Assembly (NCBI GenBank): GCA_018456245.1
Contig: JAGYHQ010000002.1
Location: 18,171 to 82,170 of the forward strand
Reading direction: 5' to 3'
Length of the DNA: 64,000 nucleotides
Origin: Tenacibaculum sp.
Lineage (GTDB): Bacteria; Bacteroidota; Bacteroidia; Flavobacteriales; Flavobacteriaceae
Part shown: in pieces, positions 34,981 through 54,993 of the stretch
Layout of the letters: each line of letters opens with the position of its first letter
Position numbering within the stretch: the first letter of the stretch is position 1
Notes under the pieces: generated by a model
What the model saw: only the letters and a program-made list of their open reading frames with translations
What the model was told of the DNA's origin: nothing
Database searches by the model: none
Position numbers and translations under genes: made by a program

Positions 34981-35060
34981 AAAAAAAAGTTTGCAAAATT
35001 TTATTCTTAAAACTTATGCAAACTTTCAATTTTTTATGTTGTTAAAATAGGACAATATTT

Positions 35061-35387
35061 TTATATCAAAAAAGAAACATTTATAATGTAAATCCAAAAC
35101 CAAACACCAAACAACCCTGTAATAAAATAACCGATTGCTTTTCTTCTATTTCTTTTTTTACTTTCGGCACTAATAGGAAATTTTTCTGGCATACTACAAG
35201 AATAACCATTAAATGCTTTGAGGCGTTCTTCTGTTTGTTTATTCCAGTTGATATACCCTCTATAAATAACCCATAAACATCCTAATATAGGCACAAAAAT
35301 ACTAATTTCAATAGCCCATAATAGTTTTACCCATACATATTCTTTTACGATTCTTGGATAATCTTCTATGTTATAAATTGTTTCCAT
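35061..35387 (-). CDS. small membrane protein, next to toxin-antitoxin pair
   Basis: two hydrophobic segments. Confidence 0.5.
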   Translation of the reverse strand: METIYNIEDYPRIVKEYVWVKLLWAIEISIFVPILGCLWVIYRGYINWNKQTEERLKAFNGYSCSMPEKFPISAESKKRNRRKAIGYFITGLFGVWFWIYIINVSFLI

Positions 35388-35656
35388 TATTTAAATAATT
35401 CAGAGTGTGTACCTAAACGAATCAATAATAAATCATTATTTATTTTTTCATAAATTAATACTAAATCAGGTTTAATATGACAATCTCTACAACCTTGATA
35501 ATTTCCTTTCAATGCGTGGTCACAATACTTTTGTGGTAATTCTTTATCATTTATAAGAAAATGTAAAACTTCAACCCACGAATCAGAGACTAACTCCAAA
35601 TAATGCTTTTTTAAGTCCCTTTTAAATTTGCCAGATAATACTAATTCTCTACTCAT
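35387..35656 (-). CDS. YafQ/RelE-family toxin
   Basis: LSGKFKRDLKK...LPQKYCDHALKGNYQGCRDCHIKPDLVLIYEK. Confidence 0.92.
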   Translation of the reverse strand: MSRELVLSGKFKRDLKKHYLELVSDSWVEVLHFLINDKELPQKYCDHALKGNYQGCRDCHIKPDLVLIYEKINNDLLLIRLGTHSELFK

Positions 35657-35933
35657 TTGCTATTTTTTTCATTGCTTGTAAAGCATCTTCCAAAGTACCA
35701 TAACGCTCAGCTGTTGCGTATTCTCGCCTTGCATCCTCTATTGCTTGTTTAGTTTCCTCATTAGGTTCTCTCACTTGTTCCCAATCTAAACTTAAAGGTA
35801 TTGCTCGGGTATGTGCCACTTGTTTTAAAAATAGCCTAATAGCTTGTGCTGGTGATATTCCGTAACTATCAAAAACACTAAAAGCGGTTTCTTTTAATTC
35901 TTCATCTAATCTTATATTATAACTTGCTTGCAT
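35649..35933 (-). CDS. RelB/DinJ-family antitoxin
   Basis: YNIRLDEELKETAFSVFDSYGISPAQAIRLFLKQV. Confidence 0.92.
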   Translation of the reverse strand: MQASYNIRLDEELKETAFSVFDSYGISPAQAIRLFLKQVAHTRAIPLSLDWEQVREPNEETKQAIEDARREYATAERYGTLEDALQAMKKIANE

Positions 35934-35952
35934 TGTATTGTTTTTTAATTAC

Positions 35953-35976
35953 ATTGTATTACAAATGTAATACAAT
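35953..35976 (-). promoter_or_regulatory. palindromic operator of the RelB/YafQ pair
   Basis: ATTGTATTAC-aaat-GTAATACAAT upstream of antitoxin start. Confidence 0.7.
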
Positions 35977-35993
35977 ATTTTAAATATAACAAA

Positions 35994-36368
35994 CTAAAAA
36001 GTAACTATTTTCATCATTTGCTCCCCACGAATTTCAGCAATATCATCAGCAAGTTGTTCCAAAACATTTGCTTCTGTTATGGATTTATTCAAAAAGCCCT
36101 GTTGCTTATATAAGCGAAGTTTCAAACCATTGCTACGCACTCCATCAAAACCAAAATGATGCTTAAACCCATAATGTGGCATTTTAATAACTAAACGCTG
36201 AAGTTCGGTGCCGTCCATTTTTGCTAATACGGTACTTTTTAAAATTGCAGAATTTCCCTGTGTAGTCTCAAACCCTCTCTTTACTAAATTTCGCAAGGCA
36301 CTACGTAATTTTCGTGCTGCCTTTCTACCTGCTTGTTGCTCTAATATTTTCTGTTCGTTAAAGTCCAT
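35994..36368 (-). CDS. phage virion-assembly protein (HK97 gp10-like)
   Basis: size, charge and position between terminase and tail genes. Confidence 0.45.
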   Translation of the reverse strand: MDFNEQKILEQQAGRKAARKLRSALRNLVKRGFETTQGNSAILKSTVLAKMDGTELQRLVIKMPHYGFKHHFGFDGVRSNGLKLRLYKQQGFLNKSITEANVLEQLADDIAEIRGEQMMKIVTF

Positions 36369-36436
36369 GTTACTAATAATATATGGCTAAAATAAACCCA
36401 CAATATGCCTTAAGATAGGACATCATATTTAATAGG

Positions 36437-37957
36437 TTATTTCCCCACAATAACATTAAAATCCCAATAATCTTTTTCTTTCTTTAAAAGTTCTTTAAAC
36501 AGTGCATAAATAGGAATATCAAAAGCGTCAGATAAATGCGTTGTATGCTGTTGTTTCATAGTCGCATTTTTCTCATCTTTTTTCACTTTTTGAATTCCGT
36601 TTCGTCCTTCAGTAGCTTCTGCTCGTTCCATAGATAAAATTAAATCTGGGCAGTTTCCTTCATTAATTCTAATTTTTTTAAAACGAGACCTTGTTTCTTT
36701 TAGCATTATATTAACCAAAATAAACTTATCGTTATGAGGAGCAACAGGTTTGTGTTTGGATTTGTTGTAAACAGTCCAACCTTTTTCTTGTAGCAATTTA
36801 ACCAAAACATCACCGTAAGTCTCATTTGTTCCTTTTTTAAATTTCGCATTCCCATCGTGACCATAATATAAATGAATAACTTTTTTTAAAAAGGGCTTGT
36901 AATATTCATCAAAGTCATTTACTAAATCTTCTAAATCTTGTGTTTCGCTTTGTTGCGATGCCCAAAACTCCTTCAAAACACGATATTCTTGTGGCAAATT
37001 TTGACTAACAACAGCAGACAAGAAAACGCCCCAATCAATAGAAAGTATCAAAGGATGACCTTGTACCAAATCAGCATCTTGGCGACAATTAAGATGAGCC
37101 ATAGTGTAATCGGCAGTGATAGATTCTAAATATTCATTATCATAAGCTGTGTAATAATGTCGTTTTGGTTTCAGTTGTAAATAAAAACCATTCTGAATTT
37201 CAGTCGGACGAATGTTCCTAATTTCCGCATCATAAATCAAATCCGAAGGCGACTCATCTTTCATTTCATCAAACCACTCTTTACGCAAATTCAGTTTATT
37301 AATCAAAGCAGAAGCCTTTATAAAAGCGTATTTTTTAGGTTTCTTTTTCGCCACATCTTCCATATCCGTAAACCACTTTCCTTTTTTAGTCAGTGGTGTA
37401 GAACTCGCATAAACTTCAGCCCCCAAAAGTGATGCATCTTTAAAACGAGCTTCTACAGCTCTGTTGGTTGTTTTTACATTATTAAACAATTTCACAGGGT
37501 CAAAAAGTGCTGCCTCATCGCCAATAATACCAAAAGAGTTCAATCCACGCCCACTATTAGGATTGTCCAAATTGACCATTTGAAAAATCGCCCCATTTGA
37601 AAAGTGAATAATATTATCCCATTTATCTGGCGTATAAAGAGGTTCGGCAAATCCGTAGCGTTTTCCGTTTTTTCCAACGACATAATCCGTACCTTCATAA
37701 AGCCCCAGAACCCTTAATCCTTTTTTAGTAGAAGGCAAAGTTCGTGATAAAATCTGCTGATAAGTAGAACCAACCAAAGCAAACGATGCTTGTGGCATTT
37801 GCTTAACCATTTCTTTCATAAAGAAAGCCAAAATAAATGACTTACCAGTTCCACGACCCCATTCTAAAAAGATTTTTGTCTTTTTTAAAACGGTAACAGC
37901 CAAAACTGCTGCAGCCTGTGCTGCGTTCAAAACTACTCGTAAAAATTTATCACTCAT
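36437..37957 (-). CDS. terminase large subunit
   Basis: LEWGRGTGKSFILAFFMKEM Walker A; FGIIGDEAALFDP Walker B-like; ILSIDWGVFLS nuclease-like. Confidence 0.88.
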   Translation of the reverse strand: MSDKFLRVVLNAAQAAAVLAVTVLKKTKIFLEWGRGTGKSFILAFFMKEMVKQMPQASFALVGSTYQQILSRTLPSTKKGLRVLGLYEGTDYVVGKNGKRYGFAEPLYTPDKWDNIIHFSNGAIFQMVNLDNPNSGRGLNSFGIIGDEAALFDPVKLFNNVKTTNRAVEARFKDASLLGAEVYASSTPLTKKGKWFTDMEDVAKKKPKKYAFIKASALINKLNLRKEWFDEMKDESPSDLIYDAEIRNIRPTEIQNGFYLQLKPKRHYYTAYDNEYLESITADYTMAHLNCRQDADLVQGHPLILSIDWGVFLSAVVSQNLPQEYRVLKEFWASQQSETQDLEDLVNDFDEYYKPFLKKVIHLYYGHDGNAKFKKGTNETYGDVLVKLLQEKGWTVYNKSKHKPVAPHNDKFILVNIMLKETRSRFKKIRINEGNCPDLILSMERAEATEGRNGIQKVKKDEKNATMKQQHTTHLSDAFDIPIYALFKELLKKEKDYWDFNVIVGK

Positions 37958-38507
37958 TACTTACTTCTTCGTGTGGAATGTCCTCAATTTCCAAATTATT
38001 AAAATCAAGTGTACCTTTTGCTAATTGATTAACAATAGCATCAGCCACACGCTTGTCAATAGTAAACTTCACAGGTTTATTTTCTAATTTCTCTGGGTTA
38101 AAGTCAATATCGTTACCATTATCAAGGTCACCATATTTACCCATAAGTTCCAAGGCTTTACCCATTGCTTTTAAATCCTTGGCTTTTATAGCCATTTGAA
38201 AAAACTTGTGTGAATATTCATATAAAATAGCAAGTGTTCCTTCTCGTTGAGTTTTCAGTACATTTCCGAAAAGGCGTTCGGCATTTTGTAGATCACGAAA
38301 CCCTTGTGCTCGTGCATAACCAAACTTATCACAAAGCACTTCAACCGCTTGTGTTTTACTATGGAATTGCAATCGTAAAGTCCAAGCAGACAACCAACGC
38401 TCACGGATTTGCTGTTGCTTTTCCGTGAGCGTATATTTTTCAGAATCTACATAATAAGCGTAAATTTTATCAAATGTAGAATCGCCTGTTTTTACGAGTG
38501 CATTCAT
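37950..38507 (-). CDS. terminase small subunit-like
   Basis: immediately upstream of and overlapping TerL; helical DNA-binding-like protein. Confidence 0.6.
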   Translation of the reverse strand: MNALVKTGDSTFDKIYAYYVDSEKYTLTEKQQQIRERWLSAWTLRLQFHSKTQAVEVLCDKFGYARAQGFRDLQNAERLFGNVLKTQREGTLAILYEYSHKFFQMAIKAKDLKAMGKALELMGKYGDLDNGNDIDFNPEKLENKPVKFTIDKRVADAIVNQLAKGTLDFNNLEIEDIPHEEVSNE

Positions 38508-38577
38508 TTATAATTATTAATTGTAAATGGTTAATAATTAACGAGAGCATTAATAATTAACCATTGATAATTGAACA

Positions 38578-39066
38578 TTAATCAATATCGTTCCATTTCA
38601 AAGGATTAACCCCACAACAAGCCTTATTCTTTACAGAAAACTCACAACGATAACCACAAAGTCCTTCAACAAATACGGGACCGACTTTAAAAAAGTGAAA
38701 ACTATTCTTATCAACTAAAAATCCACTATCAAAGCGTTCAGATAAAATTCGTGTTTCCATATCAAAACAAATCTGCTGACATAATTCTAATACTTCATTT
38801 TGAGCCTCGTAATCATCTAAATTCCCAGTACGAGTATTTGGTTTACCAAGTATAGTAAATGCTGTTGTATGGTTATGAAAGGTTTTAACTTTATCGCCTT
38901 GTGTCTGCGTTTCTACAGCATCAATAAGCATTACAGGAAGTTCTACACCTTTACGAAATGCTCCTGTAACTTCATTTACATTCCAACGATAACAACTATT
39001 AATTTCCTCGTGCTGTTTTGCCAAATTTTCTAAATAATTAACGATACCTAAAAATGTTCCTTTCAT
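38578..39066 (-). CDS. phage hypothetical (tail-terminator-like)
   Basis: position; no firm family. Confidence 0.4.
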   Translation of the reverse strand: MKGTFLGIVNYLENLAKQHEEINSCYRWNVNEVTGAFRKGVELPVMLIDAVETQTQGDKVKTFHNHTTAFTILGKPNTRTGNLDDYEAQNEVLELCQQICFDMETRILSERFDSGFLVDKNSFHFFKVGPVFVEGLCGYRCEFSVKNKACCGVNPLKWNDID

Positions 39067-39070
39067 ATAA

Positions 39071-39853
39071 TTACTGTTTATTATTCATTGATAATTGTTC
39101 CGATAATTCACTTAAAAAAGTATAAACATTAGTGCGTTTTGTTTCTTCATAAGTTCCAAATTTCCCTCCTGCTAACTGCAAAATTAATTTACCAAAACCA
39201 CTACTGTTTGGTAACTTTTGCCCCCTCTCTTTGGTAGGGGTGGGGTGGGCTTTTGGAAATACTCTCGGGTATTGTTTTGTAATATAAGTTTTACAACCTT
39301 GGTAAGCCATTGCTACAACCAGTAATTTCTTTAAGGATACATTTTTAAAGGCATTCGCTCTACGAGCTAAATCATGTTTGTCAAACGTAATTCGTTTACC
39401 TTGTTTATCCGTTTTCCTATACAAAACAGCACACAAATACTGTAAATACTCTTTATCTTTCGTTTTATGCCAACCTAAAAACAAATCATCACAATGTGCA
39501 AATTCATCAATGGTAATATTAGTAAGTCTATCCGCAGGAGGTAATATTTTTTTAGTATTGATAATTGGTAACTGATAATTGATAATTGAATAAGGAAACT
39601 TCGTCAATCCCACTTCATTATAAACCCATTCATAATGCTCTTTTAAATCTGAAAATTTTACATTACGGATAACCTTATACAACTTACGATATTTCCAAAA
39701 TTGCCAAGGGCGAATATCCATTAAAATAAAAAGAACTCTATAATCAAAAAAAAGCCCTCTTTTTTCACTATTAAACAATAGTGCTAATTGTCTAAGTTGT
39801 AACTCACTTAAATCGTTCCACTCTTTAGGTATGTTTAGGTTTATAATTTTCAT
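39071..39853 (-). CDS. phage hypothetical protein with repeat-derived inserts
   Basis: contains SIINYQLPIIN and AHPTPTKERGQ encoded by Bacteroidota-type repeats. Confidence 0.55.
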   Translation of the reverse strand: MKIINLNIPKEWNDLSELQLRQLALLFNSEKRGLFFDYRVLFILMDIRPWQFWKYRKLYKVIRNVKFSDLKEHYEWVYNEVGLTKFPYSIINYQLPIINTKKILPPADRLTNITIDEFAHCDDLFLGWHKTKDKEYLQYLCAVLYRKTDKQGKRITFDKHDLARRANAFKNVSLKKLLVVAMAYQGCKTYITKQYPRVFPKAHPTPTKERGQKLPNSSGFGKLILQLAGGKFGTYEETKRTNVYTFLSELSEQLSMNNKQ

Positions 39854-39859
39854 ATTTAT

Positions 39860-40366
39860 TTATGAATTAAAAGGAACTCGCTCTATTGCTTTTGTAACTT
39901 TATTAATTAGTACATAAAAAACAATCATCATAATAATTATAACAATTCCTAAAAAACCAATAGCGTAAAAGAAATATTGAGGTTTAAATTCACGGTTGTT
40001 TTCATTTTCAGTTTTAATATCGTTTTTAATATCCTCTCGTATGCTTTCAAGTTTCTCATTTATTTCGGCAGATATACAATCTATACGCTGATTACCTTTT
40101 TTATCATAAACAACACGAGCAACTGTTTTTGTTTCGTAATTAACCCGGGTTATAATAGTATCTTTATACCGTACGTTGGGTATAACAATACTCAACGAGT
40201 CGCCTTTGCGTTTAATTTCTTTTCGGTCAGTAATAGTAGTTTTTTTAGTATTATCAGTTGTAAGTACCTTTTTGTAGCTCTCACAACTAATAAATAGTAA
40301 AATGGGTAATAAATATTTTAAAACTTTCATACTTTCTAATTTTCTAAACAATAATTCTATAAACAT
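39860..40366 (-). CDS. candidate unimolecular spanin (lipobox plus C-terminal TM)
   Basis: YLLPILLFISCES lipobox; C-terminal FFYAIGFLGIVIIIMMIVFYVLI; next to endolysin. Confidence 0.6.
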   Translation of the reverse strand: MFIELLFRKLESMKVLKYLLPILLFISCESYKKVLTTDNTKKTTITDRKEIKRKGDSLSIVIPNVRYKDTIITRVNYETKTVARVVYDKKGNQRIDCISAEINEKLESIREDIKNDIKTENENNREFKPQYFFYAIGFLGIVIIIMMIVFYVLINKVTKAIERVPFNS

Positions 40367-40901
40367 TATTACTTCTATTAAGCCATCCTCGTAAAAACTT
40401 CTTATTAATAGGTCTAACAGTTGTTAAATATCGGTAACGTTCATCACGGAGTTGTTTTAAACAATATAATTCAGCTTTATGGATGTGAGATATTGTTTCT
40501 CGTCCAAAAATACCATCAACTCTAACACCAATACAGCTTTGAATAATCTTTACAGCTTGTTTAACCCCCATATTATAAGCCATATCAACATAAAATAATC
40601 TACATTTATACGGAACTAAATTCGCTTTACTATTAATGTAATAATTGGTAAAAGCAAATAAACAGGCTTCATCTTCGGTTAAGTGTTTAAAAAACTCAAA
40701 GTCGTAATCAAATTTTTTAGCGTGTAGGTTCCATGCAATTCCCCAAATAGTCCAACCTCCTAAATCCCCACTAACATTATGCATTTTACCGCCACCTTCC
40801 CAACGCATTAACACAGGAAATACTTTTTCTTTAAAAAAAGTAAAATCATTCGGGAATTTCTTTGCTACTTTTAAATAATATTCAAAGGTTAAATGTTTCA
40901 T
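40344..40901 (-). CDS. endolysin, glycoside hydrolase 108-like
   Basis: LMRWEGGGKMHNVSGDLGGWTIWGIA; VDGIFGRETI. Confidence 0.88.
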   Translation of the reverse strand: MKHLTFEYYLKVAKKFPNDFTFFKEKVFPVLMRWEGGGKMHNVSGDLGGWTIWGIAWNLHAKKFDYDFEFFKHLTEDEACLFAFTNYYINSKANLVPYKCRLFYVDMAYNMGVKQAVKIIQSCIGVRVDGIFGRETISHIHKAELYCLKQLRDERYRYLTTVRPINKKFLRGWLNRSNNVYRIIV

Positions 40902-40904
40902 TTT

Positions 40905-41258
40905 TTAAGGATGACTTTTTTTATAGGTATCAAAAGCCTTTTTTAATGATTCGTATTTGGTTTTCCAAAGTTCTTCAACATTCTGTAACTTTTCTCTTAA
41001 TAAATTTATTTCCTTACTATGTAAGGCTTTTAAACTTTCAATTTCTTTCCTATGAGAATCTTTTAAATCAGAAATCTCTTTCCTTAATTCATCATATTTC
41101 TTATTAGCGTCATCAACATACTTGTCGTAGGCTAATTGCATACTATTAAGAGCATCTAACTTATTCTTCTTTCGTTGTTTAAAAGAGTCGTAAAAACCGC
41201 CAACACCAAATATGGTAGTTATAATAGTTGTAAAGTGTTCTGTAAAAAAATTACTCAT
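40905..41258 (-). CDS. small coiled-coil protein, possible holin-region protein
   Basis: hydrophobic N-terminus TTIITTIFGVGGFYDSF then coiled coil. Confidence 0.45.
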   Translation of the reverse strand: MSNFFTEHFTTIITTIFGVGGFYDSFKQRKKNKLDALNSMQLAYDKYVDDANKKYDELRKEISDLKDSHRKEIESLKALHSKEINLLREKLQNVEELWKTKYESLKKAFDTYKKSHP

Positions 41259-41296
41259 AAAAAAATAAATTAATTAATTAATATAGTTATTAGTAA

Positions 41297-41728
41297 CTAT
41301 GTTGGTATTTGAATTTGTTTTGAATAGAAGAAACCTCCGATTAGTCTAATCACATAGTGAGTTAGATAATTTTTAAATTTCTTTTTAGGAGCGATTTTAT
41401 TTCGCCAAATAAGACGTTCGTTATCTGCGAATAAACGAGCCTTATACAAATTATTATCAAAATGTTGTATTTGCCCAATCTTATCAACCCATAACTTATC
41501 GTGCAATAAATCGCCAATAAAACCACTATCTATTGGCGATAATATCGACCATAAAAATTTAGGGATAGAAGCCAAATCCGTTTTAAAGCCTTTCTCTATT
41601 TTCAAAACATAACCGTCAGATAAGGTAATATCAATATCTTCCGTAACTTCAAAAGTGCGTTCGCCCTTTTCATTAGGTAAATATTGAATAGGTATATATT
41701 TTGGTTGTTCTAAAAAATTTAATTTCAT
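41297..41728 (-). CDS. DUF1353 family phage protein
   Basis: IEKGFKTDLASIPKFLWSILSP...GDLLHDKLW. Confidence 0.85.
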   Translation of the reverse strand: MKLNFLEQPKYIPIQYLPNEKGERTFEVTEDIDITLSDGYVLKIEKGFKTDLASIPKFLWSILSPIDSGFIGDLLHDKLWVDKIGQIQHFDNNLYKARLFADNERLIWRNKIAPKKKFKNYLTHYVIRLIGGFFYSKQIQIPT

Positions 41729-41782
41729 TTATATATATATTTTTATTATCAATTTCCTCCCTTTGGGAGGGGTAGAGTGGAC

Positions 41783-42301
41783 TTATTCAAATTTGAATTG
41801 AACCCCTAAAGGTTCTCCGTTTAATTTCCAATTTTTTAAAACAAAATCTTGAGCTAATCTTAAATTAACAACATCAAGTTCTGGATTAAATTCCAAAGCA
41901 TCTCCAATATTATCTTTATGGAAATAGCGTTGAATTGAATTATAATTCGGATAGCCAACCTCTATTTTTTCAGTACCTTTTAGTTTACCTCCTTTTTGTA
42001 AATAGGCAAATAAATCTTGGGTAGTACCGTCAATAGTTACATAAGTAGGCGTATCGGAATCCTTTGTAAATTCCAAAGTATCAGAATCTAAAACTTTGAT
42101 TTTTTCTTGGCTTACCTCTTTGATGTCATTTTCTTCTTTAATAAAATGTACGTCTTCATAGGTTTGGCAAAGCCAAAAAGATACTTTTAATTTTTGTAAC
42201 AAAGGAATGTCTGAAAACTCCCCAGATGATACAAAAACATTCTTAACGATTTCTCCTGTAATAGGATTTACATAATTTGAATTTTTTGGTATTAATTTCA
42301 T
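41783..42301 (-). CDS. phage hypothetical (tail appendage region)
   Basis: position. Confidence 0.4.
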   Translation of the reverse strand: MKLIPKNSNYVNPITGEIVKNVFVSSGEFSDIPLLQKLKVSFWLCQTYEDVHFIKEENDIKEVSQEKIKVLDSDTLEFTKDSDTPTYVTIDGTTQDLFAYLQKGGKLKGTEKIEVGYPNYNSIQRYFHKDNIGDALEFNPELDVVNLRLAQDFVLKNWKLNGEPLGVQFKFE

Positions 42302-42318
42302 TTTTTTTACGACTTATT

Positions 42319-42948
42319 TTAAATTCTATTATTAGTAAGGGTAGCTGAAATATTTTCAAACTGATTTTTTTCAATTGATATATTCCAACCGGTATACCAA
42401 TATTCTTGATAAGATCCCCATTGAGATAAGAATACCTTAGATACAATTACCTTTGGCTGTGTCCAAACAGTATTTAACTCGCCTATATATATACAATCTT
42501 TAGAGTCAGAAGCTCCGAACCTAACAGTATAATTAACGAGATCTTCAGAACCAATAGTTTGGCAACTAACCGTTTCCCATCCTCTACTACTATTATATCC
42601 CGAAATAATCATTGTAAAACTACCTCCTGATTTAAAATCAAAAACATCAACCCATATTTTAACAGTTGTAGAAGTTTTACTTACAGGTAATTTAATTTTT
42701 ATAGCCCCAGTATCTCTACCAATTGCACTCATATAAAAAGCATCTGGAGGAGAAAAAGTAGAAAACCCTTCAGGAGTTTTAGGAGATTCATGATTTTCAA
42801 GTATAACAGGATTTTTTCCCATTAAATCATCGTACTTATTTTTTAAAAAGTTAAGATTATCAATAATCTTTTTAAAAGTAGTCCTTATACCATCGCCTCT
42901 ACCATCATTGGCAGATGTTCCTAAATTAAAATCTGTTAACCACCTCAT
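42319..42948 (-). CDS. phage appendage/receptor-binding-like protein
   Basis: WLTDFNLGTSANDGRGDGIRTTFKKIIDNLNFL N-terminus typical of phage appendage proteins. Confidence 0.5.
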   Translation of the reverse strand: MRWLTDFNLGTSANDGRGDGIRTTFKKIIDNLNFLKNKYDDLMGKNPVILENHESPKTPEGFSTFSPPDAFYMSAIGRDTGAIKIKLPVSKTSTTVKIWVDVFDFKSGGSFTMIISGYNSSRGWETVSCQTIGSEDLVNYTVRFGASDSKDCIYIGELNTVWTQPKVIVSKVFLSQWGSYQEYWYTGWNISIEKNQFENISATLTNNRI

Positions 42949-42980
42949 ATTTACAATTGTTTATTGTTTATTGACAATTG

Positions 42981-43097
42981 TTAGTCAATATCACTTGTTA
43001 TTATATTATTATCTGCTGTTAATTTTTCTGTATCACTTTTAAAAAAAGCTATTACACCATTTACACCTTGTTTCAATACTGAATATATCCGTATCAT
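42981..43097 (-). CDS. small phage ORF (38 aa)
   Basis: MIRIYSVLKQGVNGVIAFFKSDTEKLTADNNIITSDID; preceded by the TAGGAC motif. Confidence 0.45.
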   Translation of the reverse strand: MIRIYSVLKQGVNGVIAFFKSDTEKLTADNNIITSDID

Positions 43098-43141
43098 AGT
43101 TCAAAAGTCTTTATTATTTAATTCTTAAAATAGGACAACAA

Positions 43142-44086: not shown

Positions 44087-44092
44087 TTCTCT

Positions 44093-44329: not shown

Positions 44330-44341
44330 TTTTATCTAAAA

Positions 44342-45688
44342 TTAATAATTAACTTGCTTTTCCGTTCCAGTAGGGTTTTTATCCAAAGTCGTAAGTGTTG
44401 TATTTTCAAATGCTCCGATTAGGTTTTCGTCCCAACCATTATACTGCTGGATAAACTCAAAAGGTTCAAGGGTTGTTTCTCTGTCGGAGTGTTTCATTGC
44501 CGATAAAATATACCAACTCTCACGCTTATCAGAACCACTACCTGCACCGAGTTTGCCCCCAGGGATTCCTGCACCAATAATTGAGGGGTCAACACCAGTG
44601 GCTGTAAGTCCTGCTTGTATTCCTGCCGATGTATCGTCTAAATATTTACCATCTGTATTTTTTGCGGACACATCTGTAATTTTTAAGCCAGGCTGTGGAT
44701 TTCCATTTTCATCTTTATAAATCAGCGACATTATAGATGCACCTCCATTTTCAGCACCTCGCAAATTTTGGTCTAACTCTTGGATAAATTCCGAACGAAT
44801 TTCTTGGCGTTTTTCTGGTGTAAAACTTTGCCAATCCTCTTTGTATTTTCGCTCAAAATATTCTTCAAATACCTCTATATGAAAATTGATATTTGCCTTA
44901 TCTTTTAAAAATGCCTGTTTAAATTTCGGAATAGAATTGATAATATCCAGCCAACCACTCTCAATAATAGAATGCCATTCGGGGTCGGGATAATAACTCT
45001 CGTGTATCAACGGATAATAAATCGGTCTAATAAAATTACGAATTTTCTTTGCCTTGCAATATTCACGCACTTCATCAGCAGACCAATCGTTATCAATCAG
45101 AGCAATTTTATCTACATATTTGCTATCCAAATTCACACCATCAGCCCACTTGGTAGAAATATAAACATTTTCAATCGCTCGACTTTTCTCGTTCATTAGT
45201 TCAAATCGGCAGTTAGCCGTTTGTTGCCGTTTTACACGAACGATTTTTTTAAAGTCGTTACTCAAAACATACTCTGGAAAGGCAATCGCAAAATATTCAA
45301 GGTCGATAATGGTTTCTTTCCAAAATCGTTTCATATGATTTCGTACAAAAAACTGATGCAACTCTGGATATTGTCGTGTACTTTTAGGAATGATTTGGCG
45401 TTTGCCACTCTCGTCAAAAGTTTCTTCGGCAAGTACAAAGCCACTTCCGTAGTGTGCTTTTCGGTTAGTTCTAAGTCCAGAGCGTAACGCTCCGGCAGGT
45501 TTTATTTGCTTGAGTAATTTTTGAGGAAAGTCGTTATTACTGCCCCAACTCGCAACTTTACCGTCAGAGTCTTCCGTATTTATGATTGTTCTGGTAACGG
45601 TAGCATCGTTTTTGTTTTTTGAAAACTTAACGACAGCCTTGCTGTTACCTCCTGTTATTGCAAAATCTCCGTAAAATACTGTCCCCAT
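44342..45688 (-). CDS. phage portal-like protein
   Basis: size, position, KLLKQIKPAGALRSGLRTNRKAHYGSGF; C-terminal GIQAGLTATGVDPSIIGAG. Confidence 0.6.
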   Translation of the reverse strand: MGTVFYGDFAITGGNSKAVVKFSKNKNDATVTRTIINTEDSDGKVASWGSNNDFPQKLLKQIKPAGALRSGLRTNRKAHYGSGFVLAEETFDESGKRQIIPKSTRQYPELHQFFVRNHMKRFWKETIIDLEYFAIAFPEYVLSNDFKKIVRVKRQQTANCRFELMNEKSRAIENVYISTKWADGVNLDSKYVDKIALIDNDWSADEVREYCKAKKIRNFIRPIYYPLIHESYYPDPEWHSIIESGWLDIINSIPKFKQAFLKDKANINFHIEVFEEYFERKYKEDWQSFTPEKRQEIRSEFIQELDQNLRGAENGGASIMSLIYKDENGNPQPGLKITDVSAKNTDGKYLDDTSAGIQAGLTATGVDPSIIGAGIPGGKLGAGSGSDKRESWYILSAMKHSDRETTLEPFEFIQQYNGWDENLIGAFENTTLTTLDKNPTGTEKQVNY

Positions 45689-46023
45689 TAATAAATAACT
45701 TTTTGTCCGTTAATTGAAATTATCAATCTGATATGAATAGTCCTAATATCACCATTTTGTAATTCAACATTTCGTGTTCTGTTTTCAAAATGATTAGGAT
45801 TACGCTTTCTTTTGGTACTACTTTGAGCAATCGCCAAGTAATTCGGATTTTTACTTTTTGCCCTTACATACTTGGTTACTTTCTTGTATTCATAGAGTTT
45901 GCCCCCTGTTTTTGAGTTCCGTTGTAATGTTCTAAACGAAATATCAAAAGGAATAGCCCTACCATTATGGTCGGTACTATCTATAATTTTGAGAGCATCA
46001 GAAAGTGTAATTTCATTTTTCAT
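45688..46023 (-). CDS. phage hypothetical protein
   Basis: internal ATG at 46021-46023 preferred over the longer ORF start. Confidence 0.5.
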   Translation of the reverse strand: MKNEITLSDALKIIDSTDHNGRAIPFDISFRTLQRNSKTGGKLYEYKKVTKYVRAKSKNPNYLAIAQSSTKRKRNPNHFENRTRNVELQNGDIRTIHIRLIISINGQKVIY

Positions 46024-46366
46024 ACTCCAAAATTCCGACAAATAAAAATTTTAAAATAGGACAACATTTTTTGAGACAAAAAGTATTTTTTTAAGACATT
46101 TTCATAAAAAAACAATGATACAACTTCAAAAAAGTATCATTTTTTGAGTAAAAAACAGGCTAAAATCTCATTTTTTTAAATTTAAAAAATTGAATTTCAA
46201 AAACTTAAATCAAAAACAACCCCTTAAAAATATCTTTTTTGACGTTTGACCACGCCGTCCCCTTTGAAAAATGACAATTGCCATAGTCAAAAATTTTAGG
46301 ATATATGAATTTTTACCCTGTGAAATAGGGTAAAACTACATTATTTTATCGTGAAGTAATTTAAGT

Positions 46367-46606: not shown

Positions 46607-46618
46607 AATAAAAAAGTA

Positions 46619-46761
46619 AGACAGGTGTTGTCAGGCTCACAAATCCATTATAAATAATATAGACAGGTTAAAGCCTCTGGACATTACTGTTACCAGACAC
46701 CTGTCTATATATTGAATTGATAATACCAATTTCTTCAATTGGATTTGTGATTTGACAACAC
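46619..46761. other. nested inverted-repeat structure, candidate RNA element or DNA site
   Basis: GTGTTGTCA/TGACAACAC, CACAAATCCA/TGGATTTGTG, ATATAGACAGGT/ACCTGTCTATAT nested. Confidence 0.65.
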
Positions 46762-46768
46762 AAAAGTA

Positions 46769-48058
46769 CTAATTATTAAAATAGAAATCTAAATCTTTAT
46801 CAGATAATATTTCGCCATTTTTAAGCACTTGATAATCCAAATCATTATCTCGTACATATTTAACCCAACGCCTTACAATAACATCAGCGTAACGCTCGTC
46901 AAGTTCTATTCCGTAGCAGTTTCGCCACGTTTGTTCAGAGGCAATAAGTGTTGAGCCACTACCTAAAAAACTATCACCAATAATATCGCCTTGCTGACTA
47001 CTATTTTTTAATAAATACTTTATCAAATCCAAAGGCTTCATTGTTGGATGGTCGGCATTACGTAAAGGCTTATCAAACTCAAGAATAGTTGTCTGTTTTC
47101 GGTCATTATACCATTGATGACTTGCACCTGTTTTCCAACCATATAAAATAGGCTCGTGTTTCCAATGGTAATCCTGTCGGCTCATAACAATACCATTTTT
47201 CAGCCAAATAAGACACTGACTTAATTTGAAACCTGCATCAAATAATCCTCTACGAAAATTCGCACCTTCAGTATCAGCGTGAAATATATAATACGAACCG
47301 CCTTCTTTGGTATGCTTGTATATTTCAGTATAGAAATTAAGCAAGAATTTATAAAACGAATCGTTATCCATTGAGTCGTTTTTAATCTTCAATTTATCTT
47401 TTGTCCCTCCTTCATAATTTACATTATACGGAGGGTCGGTCACAATTAAGTCGTATTTTTCATTTCGTAACAGTGTGTTATAACTCTGTGCTAATGTACT
47501 ATCTCCACAAAGCAAACGATGTTTTATATTCTTTTGCAGACTTCTAAATTCGTATAAATCGCCAAGTTTGGATATAGGTTCAGCAGGAGGTTCAACATCC
47601 AGTTCATCCTCGTTTTCTTCTTCTGTTTTGAGTTCTTCTGGAATAATATCCTGTGGAATTTCAATATTATCTACATCTAAACCAAGTTCAAGCAAATCAA
47701 TATCGGCAAAAATTTCTTCTAAAATATCCATATCCCAATAACCAACAGACACATTAGAAGTAATGTTGTATTCTTTAAATTCCTGCTCCGTTAAAGCTCT
47801 ATTCGGAACACGAACATCAATCACTTCATCTCCACGGTCAAGTTCCATAAGAACCTTAATTCGTTGGTGTCCTGCAATCACTATATTATCCGTATTAATT
47901 GCAGGAATTTCAGCCAAGTTAAACTTTTCTAAACTTCGTTTTAATTTTTCCAATCGCTCTGGTGTACATTTACGAGGATTGTAATTGTAAGGTACTAATT
48001 CCAACACTTTTCGTTGTTCAGTGTGCCATTCAATAGGAGGTAAGTTTGTCATAATCAC
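46769..48058 (-). CDS. ParB-like domain / DNA methyltransferase fusion
   Basis: ParB-like IVIAGHQRIKVLMEL; TDPPYNVNYEGG; GDSFLGSGSTLIASEQTWRNCYGIELD. Confidence 0.93.
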   Translation of the reverse strand: MIMTNLPPIEWHTEQRKVLELVPYNYNPRKCTPERLEKLKRSLEKFNLAEIPAINTDNIVIAGHQRIKVLMELDRGDEVIDVRVPNRALTEQEFKEYNITSNVSVGYWDMDILEEIFADIDLLELGLDVDNIEIPQDIIPEELKTEEENEDELDVEPPAEPISKLGDLYEFRSLQKNIKHRLLCGDSTLAQSYNTLLRNEKYDLIVTDPPYNVNYEGGTKDKLKIKNDSMDNDSFYKFLLNFYTEIYKHTKEGGSYYIFHADTEGANFRRGLFDAGFKLSQCLIWLKNGIVMSRQDYHWKHEPILYGWKTGASHQWYNDRKQTTILEFDKPLRNADHPTMKPLDLIKYLLKNSSQQGDIIGDSFLGSGSTLIASEQTWRNCYGIELDERYADVIVRRWVKYVRDNDLDYQVLKNGEILSDKDLDFYFNN

Positions 48059-48794
48059 TATTTATCAATTTATCAAGTTCAATAATATCTTGGTCCAGGA
48101 TTAATAATTTGGCATTATTTTTTTCAATTTGAACATCAATTTTAGTTCTTTTGGCAATTGTCAAATTTTCCTTTAAACTTTCAATATTCAGCCTTTCTAA
48201 CTTCTTGGTAATTTTACTTTTATTAGCACGTTTATTGTTTCTGCGTTGTAACAGTTGAGCAGGAGATAAATCGGTAAAATCAGAGGTTTTTGGCAGTAAT
48301 ACAACCTTATGATTAACATAATGCTCAAGTATCTTTTGAATGTTGTCAATTTCATCAAAAAGGCGTTCTATTTCAATACAGATTTTCAAAGCACGAATTT
48401 CATCGTCTTTATGTAAATCATTAAGTTGTAATTTCAATGATACAGCCTTTTGGAAGTTATCTCGTTGCAATCGTGCCACTTCGTGCAAATCCTTATGAAG
48501 TTGATTCAACTTGTAAAAAAATAGGGGAGTAGTTGCCTTTTTTTCTTGATTATTAACTTTTAAATCATCCGTTTTAGACTTATTTAAATTAGTAATTTTT
48601 TGACTATCAGTATTTATTATTTCTTGATTATCTTTTAATTTACTCAACTCATAAGTCAATTTATCAGCATTAGCTTTGGTTTCTTTTTTCAAAAAAAGAC
48701 GAATAAGATTAGGTTTTGCACCTTTAAGAGTTTGATACAAAGCTATGCCTTTTTGGTAATCCTGCCCGTTATTTAACCATTCTTGTACTTTCAT
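48030..48794 (-). CDS. phage coiled-coil hypothetical protein
   Basis: Lys/Glu/Leu-rich helical sequence. Confidence 0.5.
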   Translation of the reverse strand: MKVQEWLNNGQDYQKGIALYQTLKGAKPNLIRLFLKKETKANADKLTYELSKLKDNQEIINTDSQKITNLNKSKTDDLKVNNQEKKATTPLFFYKLNQLHKDLHEVARLQRDNFQKAVSLKLQLNDLHKDDEIRALKICIEIERLFDEIDNIQKILEHYVNHKVVLLPKTSDFTDLSPAQLLQRRNNKRANKSKITKKLERLNIESLKENLTIAKRTKIDVQIEKNNAKLLILDQDIIELDKLINSDYDKLTSY

Positions 48795-48915
48795 AATTTC
48801 TTGGTTCTCGTCCCACGAGCAAAAATGGCAATTGTCAAATTTTTATAATAGGACATAAAAAAACACTCATTAAATGAGTGTTTTTAAATCAAAAATAATA
48901 CATGAAAATAGTAAA

Positions 48916-49485
48916 TTAAGCAGCCTGTGTTGTAATTGTACCAGAATAAATAGGAGCATCGTAATTCTGTTTATCACTAACAACTATTGTTGATGTATTT
49001 TCTCCTTCAACTGTACCATCAATTAAGGCAGACATTTCTTTAAATTTACCTCCAAATCTTGAAGAACCAATTTGTCTTATTTGTCCAGAAGCATATTCTA
49101 CTGCTAATACAATTACATCTCTACCTTTAAACATGCGTTTAAAACCTAAAATTTCAGCTTTACTTCCTAATAATTGAAATGTTAGTTTGTTTTCAATTGC
49201 AGGAGATTTATTCACGTCTCCTATTTGGGTAGATTCTAATTTAACAGTTTCAGCAATCGCTTTAACTTTAGTAAAACCGAAACCATCTTTAAAAGTATGA
49301 GGAGTAGTAATAGTCACTAAATCTGCTAAACTTTCAGCAGGATTTTTACTTTCACTACAACGAGTTTTAGGTTCTGTTAATGTTTGGAAGTGGTCAAGTA
49401 ATGCAACATATACTTCTGTATGGGAAAATCCACCAGACACTTCGCATTCGCCAGTGCCTCCAATTTTTTCAATTTTAATTGCCAT
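48916..49485 (-). CDS. phage tail-tube-like protein
   Basis: size, position after capsid, beta-rich sequence. Confidence 0.5.
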   Translation of the reverse strand: MAIKIEKIGGTGECEVSGGFSHTEVYVALLDHFQTLTEPKTRCSESKNPAESLADLVTITTPHTFKDGFGFTKVKAIAETVKLESTQIGDVNKSPAIENKLTFQLLGSKAEILGFKRMFKGRDVIVLAVEYASGQIRQIGSSRFGGKFKEMSALIDGTVEGENTSTIVVSDKQNYDAPIYSGTITTQAA

Positions 49486-49487
49486 AA

Positions 49488-50024
49488 TTAGTCTATTTTT
49501 TTAAGTCCGTAAAATTTAGCTTCAATCAGAGAATCCATTAAAACATTATCTTTAATAGCATCTTCTGATTTATGTTTAACTCCTTTAAACCTAAAATTAT
49601 CAACTATAAATTGATAACCTTTGTAAGTAGGTTTATGAAGTTCAGAATTAACTTCATCACAATCAATTGACGATTGCCATTTATTCATTAAATCCTCTAT
49701 TTCATCATCCTTTGCTGAAATATCATTTTTCAATGTTTCATTTTCAGCATTTTTATCTTTTAATTGTTGTTGTAAGTCAGAAATAGTTTCATCCTTTACT
49801 GAAATATCTCCTTTCAATGTTTCATTTTCAGCATCTCTATCTGTTAACTGTTTTTGTAAGTCAGCAATAGTTTCATCTTTTGCTGAAATATCTTCTTTCA
49901 GTGTCTCATTTTCAGCATCTTTATCTGTTAATTGTTGTTGTAAATCAACAATAATTTCTTTATCTGTTTTATCAACAGCAGGGGCTTCTGATATCCCTGC
50001 TGATGATGTTTTTGTTTTTGCCAT
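49488..50024 (-). CDS. coiled-coil protein with three 28-aa tandem repeats
   Basis: LQQQLTDKDAENETLKEDISAKDETIAD repeated three times. Confidence 0.7.
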   Translation of the reverse strand: MAKTKTSSAGISEAPAVDKTDKEIIVDLQQQLTDKDAENETLKEDISAKDETIADLQKQLTDRDAENETLKGDISVKDETISDLQQQLKDKNAENETLKNDISAKDDEIEDLMNKWQSSIDCDEVNSELHKPTYKGYQFIVDNFRFKGVKHKSEDAIKDNVLMDSLIEAKFYGLKKID

Positions 50025-50053
50025 AATTTAAATATTAATTAATTTGGTTTAAG

Positions 50054-50998
50054 TTACCATTTTGCTACATATACCAATTGGTTGTAACCGAATCCAAGTC
50101 CTTCCCACCAGTCAGCCATTAAGAATACTTCTCGTTTACTTTCTTCTACTTTTGGTTTTTTCATTCCGTTAGTTCTTCTTAAATATAAGAAGTTATCTAC
50201 TGGAGTAGCCCAAATGTAGTTCTCACCAGCCATTGAAGGTAAGCCTACTAATTCAACATTTGTAAAATCAACTACTGGTTTTGCAGGGTTGTAGTTTACA
50301 TCTTGTCCGTGAGTGTTTCGCTTATCTCTATGATACCAACGTAATACCTTCTCTGGCATATACACACGCATTTTAGTTCCATTTAATAACGGATCAATAT
50401 TATCAACAAATTCTTCAATAATATCAAGAGCATTACTTTGTGTAATTGCACCTGATAAAGCTACGCTATTCATTGTAGAATCAGCGATACCTGCTTCTAA
50501 TAAAGTTTTAACACCGTCTAAAACTTGTGACGAAGAACCTGCAGTTCCTTCTGTAGGAGCTTCATATTTACCTTTAAAGTAAGCCTGTAATTCTAAATCT
50601 TGCTTTAATTGTGGTAATACCTCTTTTTCTATTAAGAAACGAACTAACGGCCATTTTGCACGTTCTTGTTCATTTAAATTTTGTAAAAATCCAAGCCAAG
50701 AGCCTTTTACTTCGTCTGGGAATAGGCTTAAATCAAGTTTAATATTTCTTAATTTAATCTCTTTTGGTTCAAAAGAAAGGTCGCCTTTTGGAGTAAATTT
50801 CTTTTGAAATTGTTGTACTATTTCACCTAATCGTGTATGTGCAAAACGATAAGTGTCGCCATCATAAATTATAGGTTTAGCAAAACTTGTTGTTACTGCT
50901 GGGGTTCTTAAAGCTGATAATAATCGCTTTTCATTTTGTCCTTCTGGAATGTAGTGTTCGCCAAATTGCTGAACTATTTTTGTTGTACTTACTGACAT
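50054..50998 (-). CDS. major capsid protein
   Basis: downstream of protease-scaffold; IVQQFQKKFTPKGDLSFEPKEIKLRNIKLDLSLFPDEVKGSW. Confidence 0.7.
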   Translation of the reverse strand: MSVSTTKIVQQFGEHYIPEGQNEKRLLSALRTPAVTTSFAKPIIYDGDTYRFAHTRLGEIVQQFQKKFTPKGDLSFEPKEIKLRNIKLDLSLFPDEVKGSWLGFLQNLNEQERAKWPLVRFLIEKEVLPQLKQDLELQAYFKGKYEAPTEGTAGSSSQVLDGVKTLLEAGIADSTMNSVALSGAITQSNALDIIEEFVDNIDPLLNGTKMRVYMPEKVLRWYHRDKRNTHGQDVNYNPAKPVVDFTNVELVGLPSMAGENYIWATPVDNFLYLRRTNGMKKPKVEESKREVFLMADWWEGLGFGYNQLVYVAKW

Positions 50999-51024
50999 AA
51001 TATTTTTAATTGATATTTGTTTGT

Positions 51025-52356
51025 TTAATTATTCATTGCATCAGAAATATCAATACCTCCAATGATATTACTTGTAGTTTCATCATCATCAGTCCCTGCA
51101 ATTGGATTTGTTGGTTTTTGAGCCAATGAACCATATTCAGTAACTAATGCTGATAATTTTTCAACTCCTTCAACAGTATTCATCTCTGTTGCATTTTCTA
51201 CATCAGCATTTTTAAGTGCTTTCTGAACTGCATCAGTAACTGCGTTAACCTCCGAATTAGTTTTATTTAATGAAGTTTCGGTTGCCATCAATTTTTCAGA
51301 TGTTTGTTTGTTTTTAGCTAAAGCTGACTCTATTGCCTGTGCCTGTGCATCGGTCAATAATAGCCCTGTTTCATTTTCAGCATCTGAAAACTTTTCTCCT
51401 AAAATTGCCTCTATCAAAGGCACATTTAAATTTGCCATATTTATTTTAGTATTTAATTGTTGGTTTTTATTATTCGTTTTTTTGTCGGCTTTTGATAGGC
51501 TTATAACCTTATCAATCGCAGTTTCAAGCGTTCCTATTTCGTCAATCAAACCTAATTCTAATGATTTATCGGCTTTGTAGGTTGCACCACTTAAAACATC
51601 ATCATTAAGGTTCGGACGAGCCGATTTCATATCTTTATGAAAATCCTCTGTAATAGGATCTAAAACATTCTTGATGTAGTTTTCTGGTTTTCCTGCCAAT
51701 AAATCCTCAAAGTTTTTGTTTTTATCAGTGGATTTGGTTGCGTAGGCTGTAATGACTTTAGCCCCTTGTTTTTCGTAGTAACCACGGAAGTCTACGAATG
51801 AAATCACTGTCCCAATAGAACCGATAGCATCGCATCGTTTGTTAGCAATAATATGATTACTCGCAGAACCGATATAATATGCAGCACTGCACATCATTCC
51901 ATCAGTATAAGCCACAACAGGCTTTTCAAATGACTTTATAAAATCATAAAATTCAGCAGTTCCTGCCACTTGACCGCCCCCACTGTCGATATCCAAAACA
52001 ATACCTGTACAATTTGGATTATTTCCGTAGGAACTCATCAACCCCATCATATCTTTTGTTCCCATAGGACCACAAAACTGACTATACTTGTAAATAGGAT
52101 TTTTAACAGGAATTACAGCCACAAAAGGCTCTTTTTGATTTGATGATACTTTGGAATTTGCCAATGCCTTTACCGTTCCATTTGCATTATGACTTATTAA
52201 ATAATGCACTTTTTTAGGTTCTTTTACTTCTACCGAAAAATCGCCTTTTTTCAAAATAGCATAAAGCAATGGTAATATTGAATCTTTATAATTAGACTCA
52301 ATAAACCATTTACCGTTAAGTAATGAAAATAAATTATTTACACCCATAATTTGCAT
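51025..52356 (-). CDS. S49 (SppA-like) peptidase fused to capsid scaffold
   Basis: IVLDIDSGGGQVAGTAEF, YTDGMMCSAAYYIGSAS; C-terminal coiled scaffold. Confidence 0.9.
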   Translation of the reverse strand: MQIMGVNNLFSLLNGKWFIESNYKDSILPLLYAILKKGDFSVEVKEPKKVHYLISHNANGTVKALANSKVSSNQKEPFVAVIPVKNPIYKYSQFCGPMGTKDMMGLMSSYGNNPNCTGIVLDIDSGGGQVAGTAEFYDFIKSFEKPVVAYTDGMMCSAAYYIGSASNHIIANKRCDAIGSIGTVISFVDFRGYYEKQGAKVITAYATKSTDKNKNFEDLLAGKPENYIKNVLDPITEDFHKDMKSARPNLNDDVLSGATYKADKSLELGLIDEIGTLETAIDKVISLSKADKKTNNKNQQLNTKINMANLNVPLIEAILGEKFSDAENETGLLLTDAQAQAIESALAKNKQTSEKLMATETSLNKTNSEVNAVTDAVQKALKNADVENATEMNTVEGVEKLSALVTEYGSLAQKPTNPIAGTDDDETTSNIIGGIDISDAMNN

Positions 52357-52408
52357 TTAATGATACAAACATACTTTGGCGTAAATTCTTAAAATAGGAC
52401 AATAAATT

Positions 52409-52597
52409 TTAAGGAATAATAATCTGTATTTTTGGGTTTGAAAACGGATTTATTCTTGTGAATTCTATTTTTGGAGCATAAAATATTCTACCATCATAAC
52501 ATTTTATTTGTAGAGTCAATGGCTTTCCTGTTGGTTTATATTCTTGTAAAAATACACCTTCTATTCCAGAGGTGTGTCTATAATAGATTTGTTCCAT
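52409..52597 (-). CDS. small phage hypothetical protein
   Basis: 62-aa ORF in operon. Confidence 0.4.
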   Translation of the reverse strand: MEQIYYRHTSGIEGVFLQEYKPTGKPLTLQIKCYDGRIFYAPKIEFTRINPFSNPKIQIIIP

Positions 52598-52599
52598 AT

Positions 52600-53064
52600 T
52601 TACAAATATACAGGTTTTTGTGGTATTGTTCCTTCTACTTTTATTTTAAATAAACATCCATCTTCGTATTTAACGCCATTTATAGCTCTATAAGAAAATT
52701 CTAACGGACAAGTTGGTGAACCATATAATATTTGGTCTCCGTAGTGTTTTATCCCTAAAATTGCTACTTTTTTATGGATGCAATCATTAAAATAACTATC
52801 AATTTCCTTGCTTTGTGTTGCTACTTCAAATTCAGCTTTTATATTGTAGGAAGTTCCAGATTTACCTGTTCTCGGAGTAGCATTAATCTTAATAGTTTCA
52901 GCAACGGGTAAAATATCTAATCCTGTATTTTTAGGAGTAATAATTATTTTATCAGAATTATCATTGGTTAAAACAGCGGGGCAGTAGGCAAACTCATCTA
53001 CCATTATTATTTGAGCGACAAACCAACCTCCTTCTTGTTCGGGTTTAAAAATTTCTACATCCAT
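52600..53064 (-). CDS. phage hypothetical protein
   Basis: 154-aa ORF in operon. Confidence 0.5.
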   Translation of the reverse strand: MDVEIFKPEQEGGWFVAQIIMVDEFAYCPAVLTNDNSDKIIITPKNTGLDILPVAETIKINATPRTGKSGTSYNIKAEFEVATQSKEIDSYFNDCIHKKVAILGIKHYGDQILYGSPTCPLEFSYRAINGVKYEDGCLFKIKVEGTIPQKPVYL

Positions 53065-53171
53065 AATTTGTATTTTAGGACAAAAAATAATTTTTGTAAT
53101 TGTATCCTACTCCGAAACCCTTATAAATTAAGAGCTTGTTAATAGGACACAATTACTAAAAATAATATTTG

Positions 53172-53678
53172 TCATTTTTTTATATATCTATAATATTGTC
53201 GGTAAACTGATTCTCTACATAAATCATCTTCAGTAATTTCATAATAATTTAAAAATTGAGAAATCGCTTTAATAGTATTTTGTTTTACAATCGAATCATG
53301 TTTATCATCATACACCTTTAAATGATTGTTCTTTGATACTTCTATATAGCTATACAAATCATTTAAGAATACTTTTTTCAGTACAGTTTGCAACCTACAT
53401 AATTTTGTTTTTGAAATTGAAAATCCTACTCCAGATACTGTTGATGACGGAATGGTAATAGAGTAGAAGTCGTCTTTTTCTAAAGTAGTTTTTGTAGGTC
53501 TATATTCTTTATCTAAAACATCAATTACATAGGCACCAAGCCACGAATCACGAGATGCTGTGTATGTGGCTCCAAATTTATTTGTTAAATATTTTTTTAA
53601 ATAACTATTTAAAGGAAGACGTAAAGTAACAGAACCAATCATATCAAAGAAATTATTTAAATAAAAAGACTGTTCCAA
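53172..53678 (-). CDS. phage hypothetical protein
   Basis: 168-aa ORF. Confidence 0.5.
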   Translation of the reverse strand: MEQSFYLNNFFDMIGSVTLRLPLNSYLKKYLTNKFGATYTASRDSWLGAYVIDVLDKEYRPTKTTLEKDDFYSITIPSSTVSGVGFSISKTKLCRLQTVLKKVFLNDLYSYIEVSKNNHLKVYDDKHDSIVKQNTIKAISQFLNYYEITEDDLCRESVYRQYYRYIKK

Positions 53679-53683
53679 AAATA

Positions 53684-53929
53684 CTAAATATTTATAATTT
53701 TTTCTTCATAAATATTACTATTTAAAAGTTTAGTATATAATGTTTTACATTTTTTTACTTCATCAATCACTTCAAAATAAACTCCTTTATTTTTAAGCTC
53801 CTGTATTACAGTGTTTAAATCGGTAAATTCAACAGGAGCTAATTCTGATATAACTCCGTTTTTTGTATTTTTTAAAACTCGTTCAAATACTTTTATTTTT
53901 TTAATTTCCTTATCATTCTTTTTAGCCAT
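53684..53929 (-). CDS. small phage hypothetical protein
   Basis: 81-aa ORF. Confidence 0.45.
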   Translation of the reverse strand: MAKKNDKEIKKIKVFERVLKNTKNGVISELAPVEFTDLNTVIQELKNKGVYFEVIDEVKKCKTLYTKLLNSNIYEEKIINI

Positions 53930-54013
53930 AACTTATAATATTTGGTTAATCTTAAACAAAGTAACTTTTTAAACTTTTCTTAAAATAGGACGACTTTCCA
54001 GAGGTATGTGTAA

Positions 54014-54967: not shown

Positions 54968-54993
54968 CTTATTATTTTTTTATAGGGGGTTGA

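Follow-up and report, generated by a model that had tools for sequence, protein, structure and literature searches.

What function is served by the short intergenic box that precedes the late genes of a Tenacibaculum sp. prophage over and over, and which protein reads it, are the questions raised by the stretch of DNA analyzed here (assembly GCA_018456245.1, contig JAGYHQ010000002.1, positions 18,171 to 82,170; its full 64,000 nucleotides (nt) are hereafter the window). The prophage is that of a temperate phage, as it encodes an integrase, and runs from this plus-strand gene through minus-strand tail, terminase, portal, capsid and head-protease genes to an early region that includes a DnaG-type primase (57653-61096); the end of the window is also the end of the contig. 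Judging from its sequence context, the box belongs to an element that is almost certainly a promoter. An activator-dependent late promoter, in which the phage box is coupled to a host-type -7 element, is probably the best explanation overall.

We confirmed seven copies of the box, which is 13 letters long, in the window, all on the minus strand; they match the 15-mer with 0-3 mismatches. The core GTCCTAT occurs 11 times in this orientation and never in the opposite one. By itself, the 15-mer is weakly enriched, with 16 matches in the window compared with 8.5 expected when three mismatches are allowed. The motif became decisive when a TTTG at fixed spacing was added to the 15-mer: the TTTG lies exactly 18 nt past it in six of the seven copies (TTAG in the seventh), a spacing with a binomial probability of approximately 4e-12 per offset. 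Using a matrix trained exclusively on 64 sites from other phages, we scored some 128,000 window positions and recovered the seven copies as the seven highest scores, from 40.0 down to 10.4 bits, with the next best at 3.1 bits. The maximum score in 40 simulated windows averaged 6.0, yet one reached 16.6; hence, the weakest site (53979, 10.4 bits) leans on its position and its homologues. Two further copies in the original prediction, which had listed nine, were dropped because they did not fit the composite of box and TTTG: the one at 53072 scored 0.7 bits and the one at 53138 fell outside the 16 best matrix scores. No copy had been seen originally in the early region (54.5-64 kb), and neither the GTCCTAT search nor the matrix scan found a box copy there. 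Nor is the motif equally abundant in the host, as the strict composite pattern occurs five times in the entire 1.59 Mb genome, each time in this phage.

Relatives with 66-79% terminase identity were found in IMG/VR and in other genomes. Searching this phage and ten closer relatives (11 phages in total) with the pattern GTCCTAT[TC][TCA][TA]A retrieved 71 sites. All 71 have TT at offset 31-32 from the box G and lie 2-50 nt ahead of an open reading frame (ORF); A is found at offset 28 in 69 of them, and TTTG predominates. Approximately 25 of the 71 lie directly behind a hairpin and T-run by a simple scan, as does the box at 48842..48854 in the window, suggesting that a terminator is fused with the next promoter. 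Among 295 related genomes, at least three strict copies were present in only four, all of them with this prophage type; outside the phage type, the strict composite occurred as single copies in five of the 295. We also scanned the 2.9 million viral contigs of IMG/VR for the pattern GTCCTATTTTA-N20-TTTG-N4-ATG and for a GTCCTTTTTT version of it. The right spacing returned 25 and 71 stretches, respectively, versus 0 and 2 when the spacing was shifted by 2 nt. Of 95 loci fetched by the DNA pattern alone, 70 encode homologues of the late proteins of this phage. At the level of sequence comparison, this establishes the composite of box and TTTG with its unvarying spacing, its strand, its placement at late genes, its conservation and its near-absence from hosts, and lends strong support to the predicted phage-specific late promoter or activator site.

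A GTCCTAT search alone suggested that the box was absent from relatives with approximately 48-50% terminase identity. This was ruled out: phages at about 48% identity have no GTCCTAT but carry a GTCCTTTT variant with the same spacing upstream of the same genes. The closest isolate, Polaribacter phage Leef_1 (Helgolandviridae, 48% terminase identity), and Cellulophaga phage Ingeline (Duneviridae) have such GTCCTTTT boxes; more distant phages (Helgolandviridae, Duneviridae) keep the layout in this form. In Ingeline the boxes take the form GTCCTTTTAA, and several are followed by a -7 element of the TAnnATTG type. Flavobacterium phage 6H (L271, Duneviridae) has a shortened form of the same box, given as a ATGTCTTAAA or GTCTTAAA variant, before several late genes; as read by eye, its distance from TTTG-like elements is about the same. 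Consistent with this, unsupervised enrichment of 7-mers ranked TGTCCTT/GTCCTTT first or close to first in Leef_1, G030, G591, G605, G598 and G613; the enrichment was limited to regions upstream of genes, because unmasked clustering of k-mers over whole phages was swamped by coding repeats. Leef_1, Ingeline and 6H resemble this phage in having related virion genes, a LuxR-type protein and a homologue of the 156-residue orphan protein discussed below (g53172), yet differ in the letters of the box. The paper describing these phages mentions LuxR genes but no promoters (PMC8776804). The original proposal to look for the motif in related phages thus yielded the box in ten closer relatives and a variant in more distant ones, and the comparison indicates that this phage and a wide range of relatives use one shared kind of late promoter for their virion genes. 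Named carrier records include Polaribacter, Tenacibaculum, Arenibacter, Galbibacter, Aquimarina and Zunongwangia.

Three prophages (G101, G275 and G287; L035-L042 and L170-L172) have the TerS-TerL operon inverted relative to the other late genes. A separate box with the correct spacing accompanies the inverted operon on the opposite strand, which indicates that the element has a direction and goes with the transcription unit. The two back-to-back boxes in these prophages form a GGACA...TGTCC hairpin followed by T-runs, so that promoter box and terminator share letters.

The motif was originally described as a poor match to the host TAnnTTTG promoter. This is true of the box itself, but a host-type nAnnTTTG stands at a fixed distance downstream of every copy. 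The primary Flavobacterium promoter has the consensus -33 TTTG / -7 TANNTTTG, refined to TAHHTTTG; in F. johnsoniae, T-12, A-11, T-8, T-7, T-6 and G-5 are nearly invariant, the -33 TTTG is weak as well, transcription starts 4 or 5 nt past the -7 element and 87% of the leaders are longer than 10 nt (PMC6847099). By this start-site rule, the phage box would span approximately -39 to -27, where the host promoter has its -33 element, and the TTTG would be the host -7 element. Like the host promoter, the phage sites keep A-11 (69/71), T-8 and T-7 (71/71) and mostly T-6 and G-5, with a predicted start 4-5 nt downstream. They differ from it in being degenerate at -12, -9 and -5 (T-12 in 31/71, G at -9 in 19/71). 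Further, the -33 TTTG is not kept in any site of the 11 phages and the distant relatives, where the region is occupied by GTCCTATTTTAAA or GTCCTTTT. Such a weakened -7 element fits promoters that need an activator.

The same start-site rule predicts leaderless mRNAs, because an ATG lies exactly 4 nt past the TTTG in 34 of the 71 sites. Hence, roughly every second transcript of this clade is expected to start at the A of the AUG, in contrast with the longer leaders that predominate in F. johnsoniae. At site 4 the predicted start is 18 nt downstream of the listed TTG (46041), so the gene given as 45688-46041 should begin at ATG 46023. The predicted start at site 5 likewise coincides with the first codon of the 38-residue ORF whose presence after one of the copies had been pointed out originally. 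We found homologues of it in eight of the ten closer relatives (47-71% identity, tblastn) and a 38-codon ORF behind the box in a ninth (G304). Conserved and beginning exactly at the predicted transcription start, it is a real gene that length cut-offs miss. The spacer TTGACAATTGCCA between box and -7 element recurs at several promoters, both within and between phages (48820-48842; many sites in L009-L014), which suggests that whole promoter cassettes were copied together with inserted genes. Table 1 lists the elements.

Table 1. Promoter elements and genes in the window. The G of each box is at its higher coordinate; starts follow the spacing rule of PMC6847099.
Feature	Positions	Strand	Sequence	Bits	Genes and remarks
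Tyrosine integrase	26757..27923	+			PF00589, E=4.5e-14; at the tail-gene end of the prophage
Site 7 -7 element	35019..35026	-	AAAGTTTG		predicted start ~35014
Site 7 box	35041..35053	-	GTCCTATTTTAAC	25.1	tape-measure gene 31663-34980
Site 6 -7 element	36387..36394	-	TATTTTAG		predicted start ~36382
Site 6 box	36409..36421	-	GTCCTATCTTAAG	17.5	gene 35994-36368
38-aa ORF	42981..43097	-	MIRIYSVLKQGVNGV... (protein)		right behind the site 5 box; conserved in related phages
Site 5 -7 element	43102..43109	-	GACTTTTG		predicted start 43097 = A of ATG, leaderless (d=4)
Site 5 box	43124..43136	-	GTCCTATTTTAAG	30.4	38-aa ORF and 42319-42948
Site 4 -7 element	46028..46035	-	GAATTTTG		predicted start 46023 = A of ATG, leaderless (d=4, 111 aa)
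Site 4 box	46050..46062	-	GTCCTATTTTAAA	32.2	gene 45688-46023 and portal-like 44342-45688
Site 3 -7 element	48820..48827	-	CATTTTTG		predicted start ~48815
Site 3 box	48842..48854	-	GTCCTATTATAAA	40.0	rank 1; gene 48030-48794
Site 2 -7 element	52366..52373	-	TATGTTTG		predicted start ~52361
Site 2 box	52388..52400	-	GTCCTATTTTAAG	34.2	head maturation protease 51025-52356 and capsid genes
g53172, orphan 156-aa protein	53172..53642	-			preferred reader candidate; accompanies the box also in phages that lack LuxR
Possible host-type -7 element of g53172 itself	53676..53683	-	TATTTTTG		
Site 1 -7 element	53957..53964	-	TTACTTTG		predicted start ~53952
Site 1 box	53979..53991	-	GTCCTATTTTAAG	10.4	rank 7 in the window; genes 53684-53929, 53172-53642, 52600-53064
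LuxR/NarL-type helix-turn-helix protein	62462..63082	-			early gene; alternative box reader or upstream regulator in a cascade

We propose that each copy is the upstream half of a late promoter of the form T-GTCCTATTTTAAA-N14-(T)AnnTTTG-N4-start. A phage protein made before the late phase would bind the box over the -33 region, substitute for, or assist, the contact that the primary sigma factor makes at -33, and recruit the host RNA polymerase to the weak -7 element. Each block of virion genes would then start at its own copy, many right behind a terminator. The invariant spacing of the box to the weak -7 element points to an activator that contacts the polymerase at a fixed place, and the box is very probably read by such a phage-encoded activator rather than by a repressor or a host factor. 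The reader would most likely be g53172, possibly switched on by the early LuxR-type protein, though we put the chances of g53172 itself at roughly even.

The g53172 gene was found in each of the 16 first-set phages and in nearly all of the box-bearing records tested; of the 295 related genomes, seven carry it, all seven with box sites. Presence patterns favour g53172 over the LuxR-type protein as the candidate reader: two phages (G613 and G614, the latter with one box) and genome G350 have the box and g53172 but no detectable LuxR homologue, whereas G617 and G619 encode a LuxR-type protein and have neither g53172 nor the box, implying that their late promoters must be of another kind. G617 and G619 (L238-L243) are phages of approximately 51 kb that share with this phage only the LuxR-type protein (35-37%). 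Many of the distant phages have g53172 about 1 kb ahead of the head-protease box, its usual location, and in several it has a host-type promoter of its own (often CATTGGATT...TATATTTG); both the place and the timing would suit a late activator. In the window, ATG 53642 fits the g53172 homologues better than the listed TTG start at 53678 (53172-53678). Upstream of g53172 homologues (for example in L213, L194, L219, G101 and G287) we saw a second conserved kind of promoter, in which CATTGGATT precedes TATATTTG. It often comes with a degenerate GTCC box whose distance is one base longer, and is possibly the target of the LuxR-type protein.

Several observations weigh against this reading. No recognisable DNA-binding domain or fold match was found for g53172 in Pfam, PHROGs or the PDB (by sequence and by fold); its predicted model, with a predicted local distance difference test (pLDDT) score of 81, retrieved nothing convincing from the PDB and only the Leef_1 homologue from BFVD. 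The gene adjoins the late genes and, in the window's own clade, lies itself behind a box, so that its co-occurrence with the box may partly be plain linkage. One record (G616) has three boxes and no detectable g53172, though its contig, at 31 kb, is possibly incomplete. The LuxR-type protein, for its part, is present in all 15 first-set phages whose records cover the early region. More generally, promoter activity, start sites, leaderless mRNA and the activator mechanism are inferred from the sequence.

As the original prediction had suggested, the reader could instead be the LuxR/NarL-type early protein (ORF 62462-63082 and its homologues). The promoter would be the same, and this protein would bind the box over the -33 region in the manner of a class II activator. 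This early gene product has a NarL/GerE helix-turn-helix domain by sequence and by fold and retains 39-57% identity across the first set, while most other early genes vary. Typical NarL/LuxR binding sites are dyad-symmetric, yet inspection of the 71-site consensus revealed no inverted repeat in GTCCTATTTTAAA. The box without the protein (G613, G614, G350) and the protein without the box (G617, G619) also argue against it, and we regard this identification as doubtful: possible, though not favoured. Equally tentative is the boldest form of our preferred reading, in which g53172 would be the first known representative of a family of phage transcription factors with a new fold. At the box (-39 to -27), such a factor would appropriate the primary sigma factor of Bacteroidota and so drive the late transcripts of Helgolandviridae and Duneviridae, most of them leaderless, in a cascade that begins with the early LuxR-type protein.

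Other readings assign the box to a different kind of factor. As the phage is temperate and a site over the -33 region could block the polymerase, the box might be an operator at which a phage repressor holds the late promoters in the prophage state until its release turns them on. We consider this improbable, because the spacing to the -7 element never varies in the 71 sites, as for a polymerase contact and not for simple blocking, and because a weak -7 element and no -33 TTTG leave hardly any basal promoter for a repressor to act on. Two elements at a rigid spacing would also be expected of a phage-encoded sigma factor that recognises box and -7 element together; this seems quite unlikely, given that A-11, T-8 and T-7 of the host sigma consensus are retained in the -7 half and that no sigma-factor family was recognized among the phage proteins scanned with Pfam, which included part of the early proteins. 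The host type of the -7 element could suggest that a host regulator or alternative sigma factor reads a box borrowed by the phage. A host factor is very unlikely, because the hosts lack the composite element: its strict form occurs outside the phage type only as the single copies noted above and nowhere else in the window's genome. Lastly, the weak enrichment of the bare 15-mer is what chance or low complexity might produce in a genome with 30% GC, but the spacing controls, the matrix ranking and the spacing kept at every site refute such an artefact, whose probability we take to be negligible.

Four other loci in the window deserve mention. Toxin-antitoxin pairs lie within the tail region (YafQ/RelB, 35387-35933) and at the early/late border (HicA and a HicB-like helix-turn-helix protein, 54557-55182), each with a host-type TAnnTTTG and no phage box upstream. 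DNA methyltransferases are encoded in the late region (N4/N6 type, 46769-48058; in relatives, a patchy insert between late genes) and in the early region (C5 type, 55246-56295).

In the open-access papers that we searched, neither a late promoter nor a late activator of Bacteroidota phages was described. The composite element provides a precise, testable definition of a late promoter for a large group of flavobacterial phages, along with two named candidates for its regulator, start-codon corrections for some genes and the prediction of many leaderless late mRNAs in a phylum, the Bacteroidota, that does not use Shine-Dalgarno sequences. Its DNA signature alone is enough to pull this phage group out of metagenomes, and the element could in principle supply a phage-switchable promoter for Flavobacterium and its relatives.

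Phage Mu C, P2 Ogr and lambda Q are late activators encoded at the early/late border. Like them, g53172 lies just before the late operons, and a cascade from an early regulator is plausible. We found no similarity to them in the sequence, profile or fold of g53172, and neither g53172 nor the LuxR-type protein matched the Mor/C family in Pfam or PHROGs. Unlike the lambda Q system, the signal here is an upstream promoter box repeated before several operons. The middle promoters of phage T4 offer a closer parallel. In these promoters, a MotA box centred at -30 replaces the -35 element at 12+/-1 bp from the -10 element, a good match to the host -10 is needed, and MotA acts with AsiA in sigma appropriation (PMC2988021). 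Searches for MotA and AsiA homologues, which covered part of the early proteins, matched none: g53172 had no PDB or Pfam match and the LuxR-type protein matched NarL/GerE only. In both phages, a phage box takes the place of the host upstream element at a near-fixed distance from a host-type downstream element and marks one temporal class of genes. The two differ in the sequence of the box, in the Bacteroidota type of the host sigma factor, in the late rather than middle class of the genes and in the downstream half, which must be good in T4 but is weak and degenerate here. The phage late promoter, as we understand it, works like T4 sigma appropriation but is not a member of that system.

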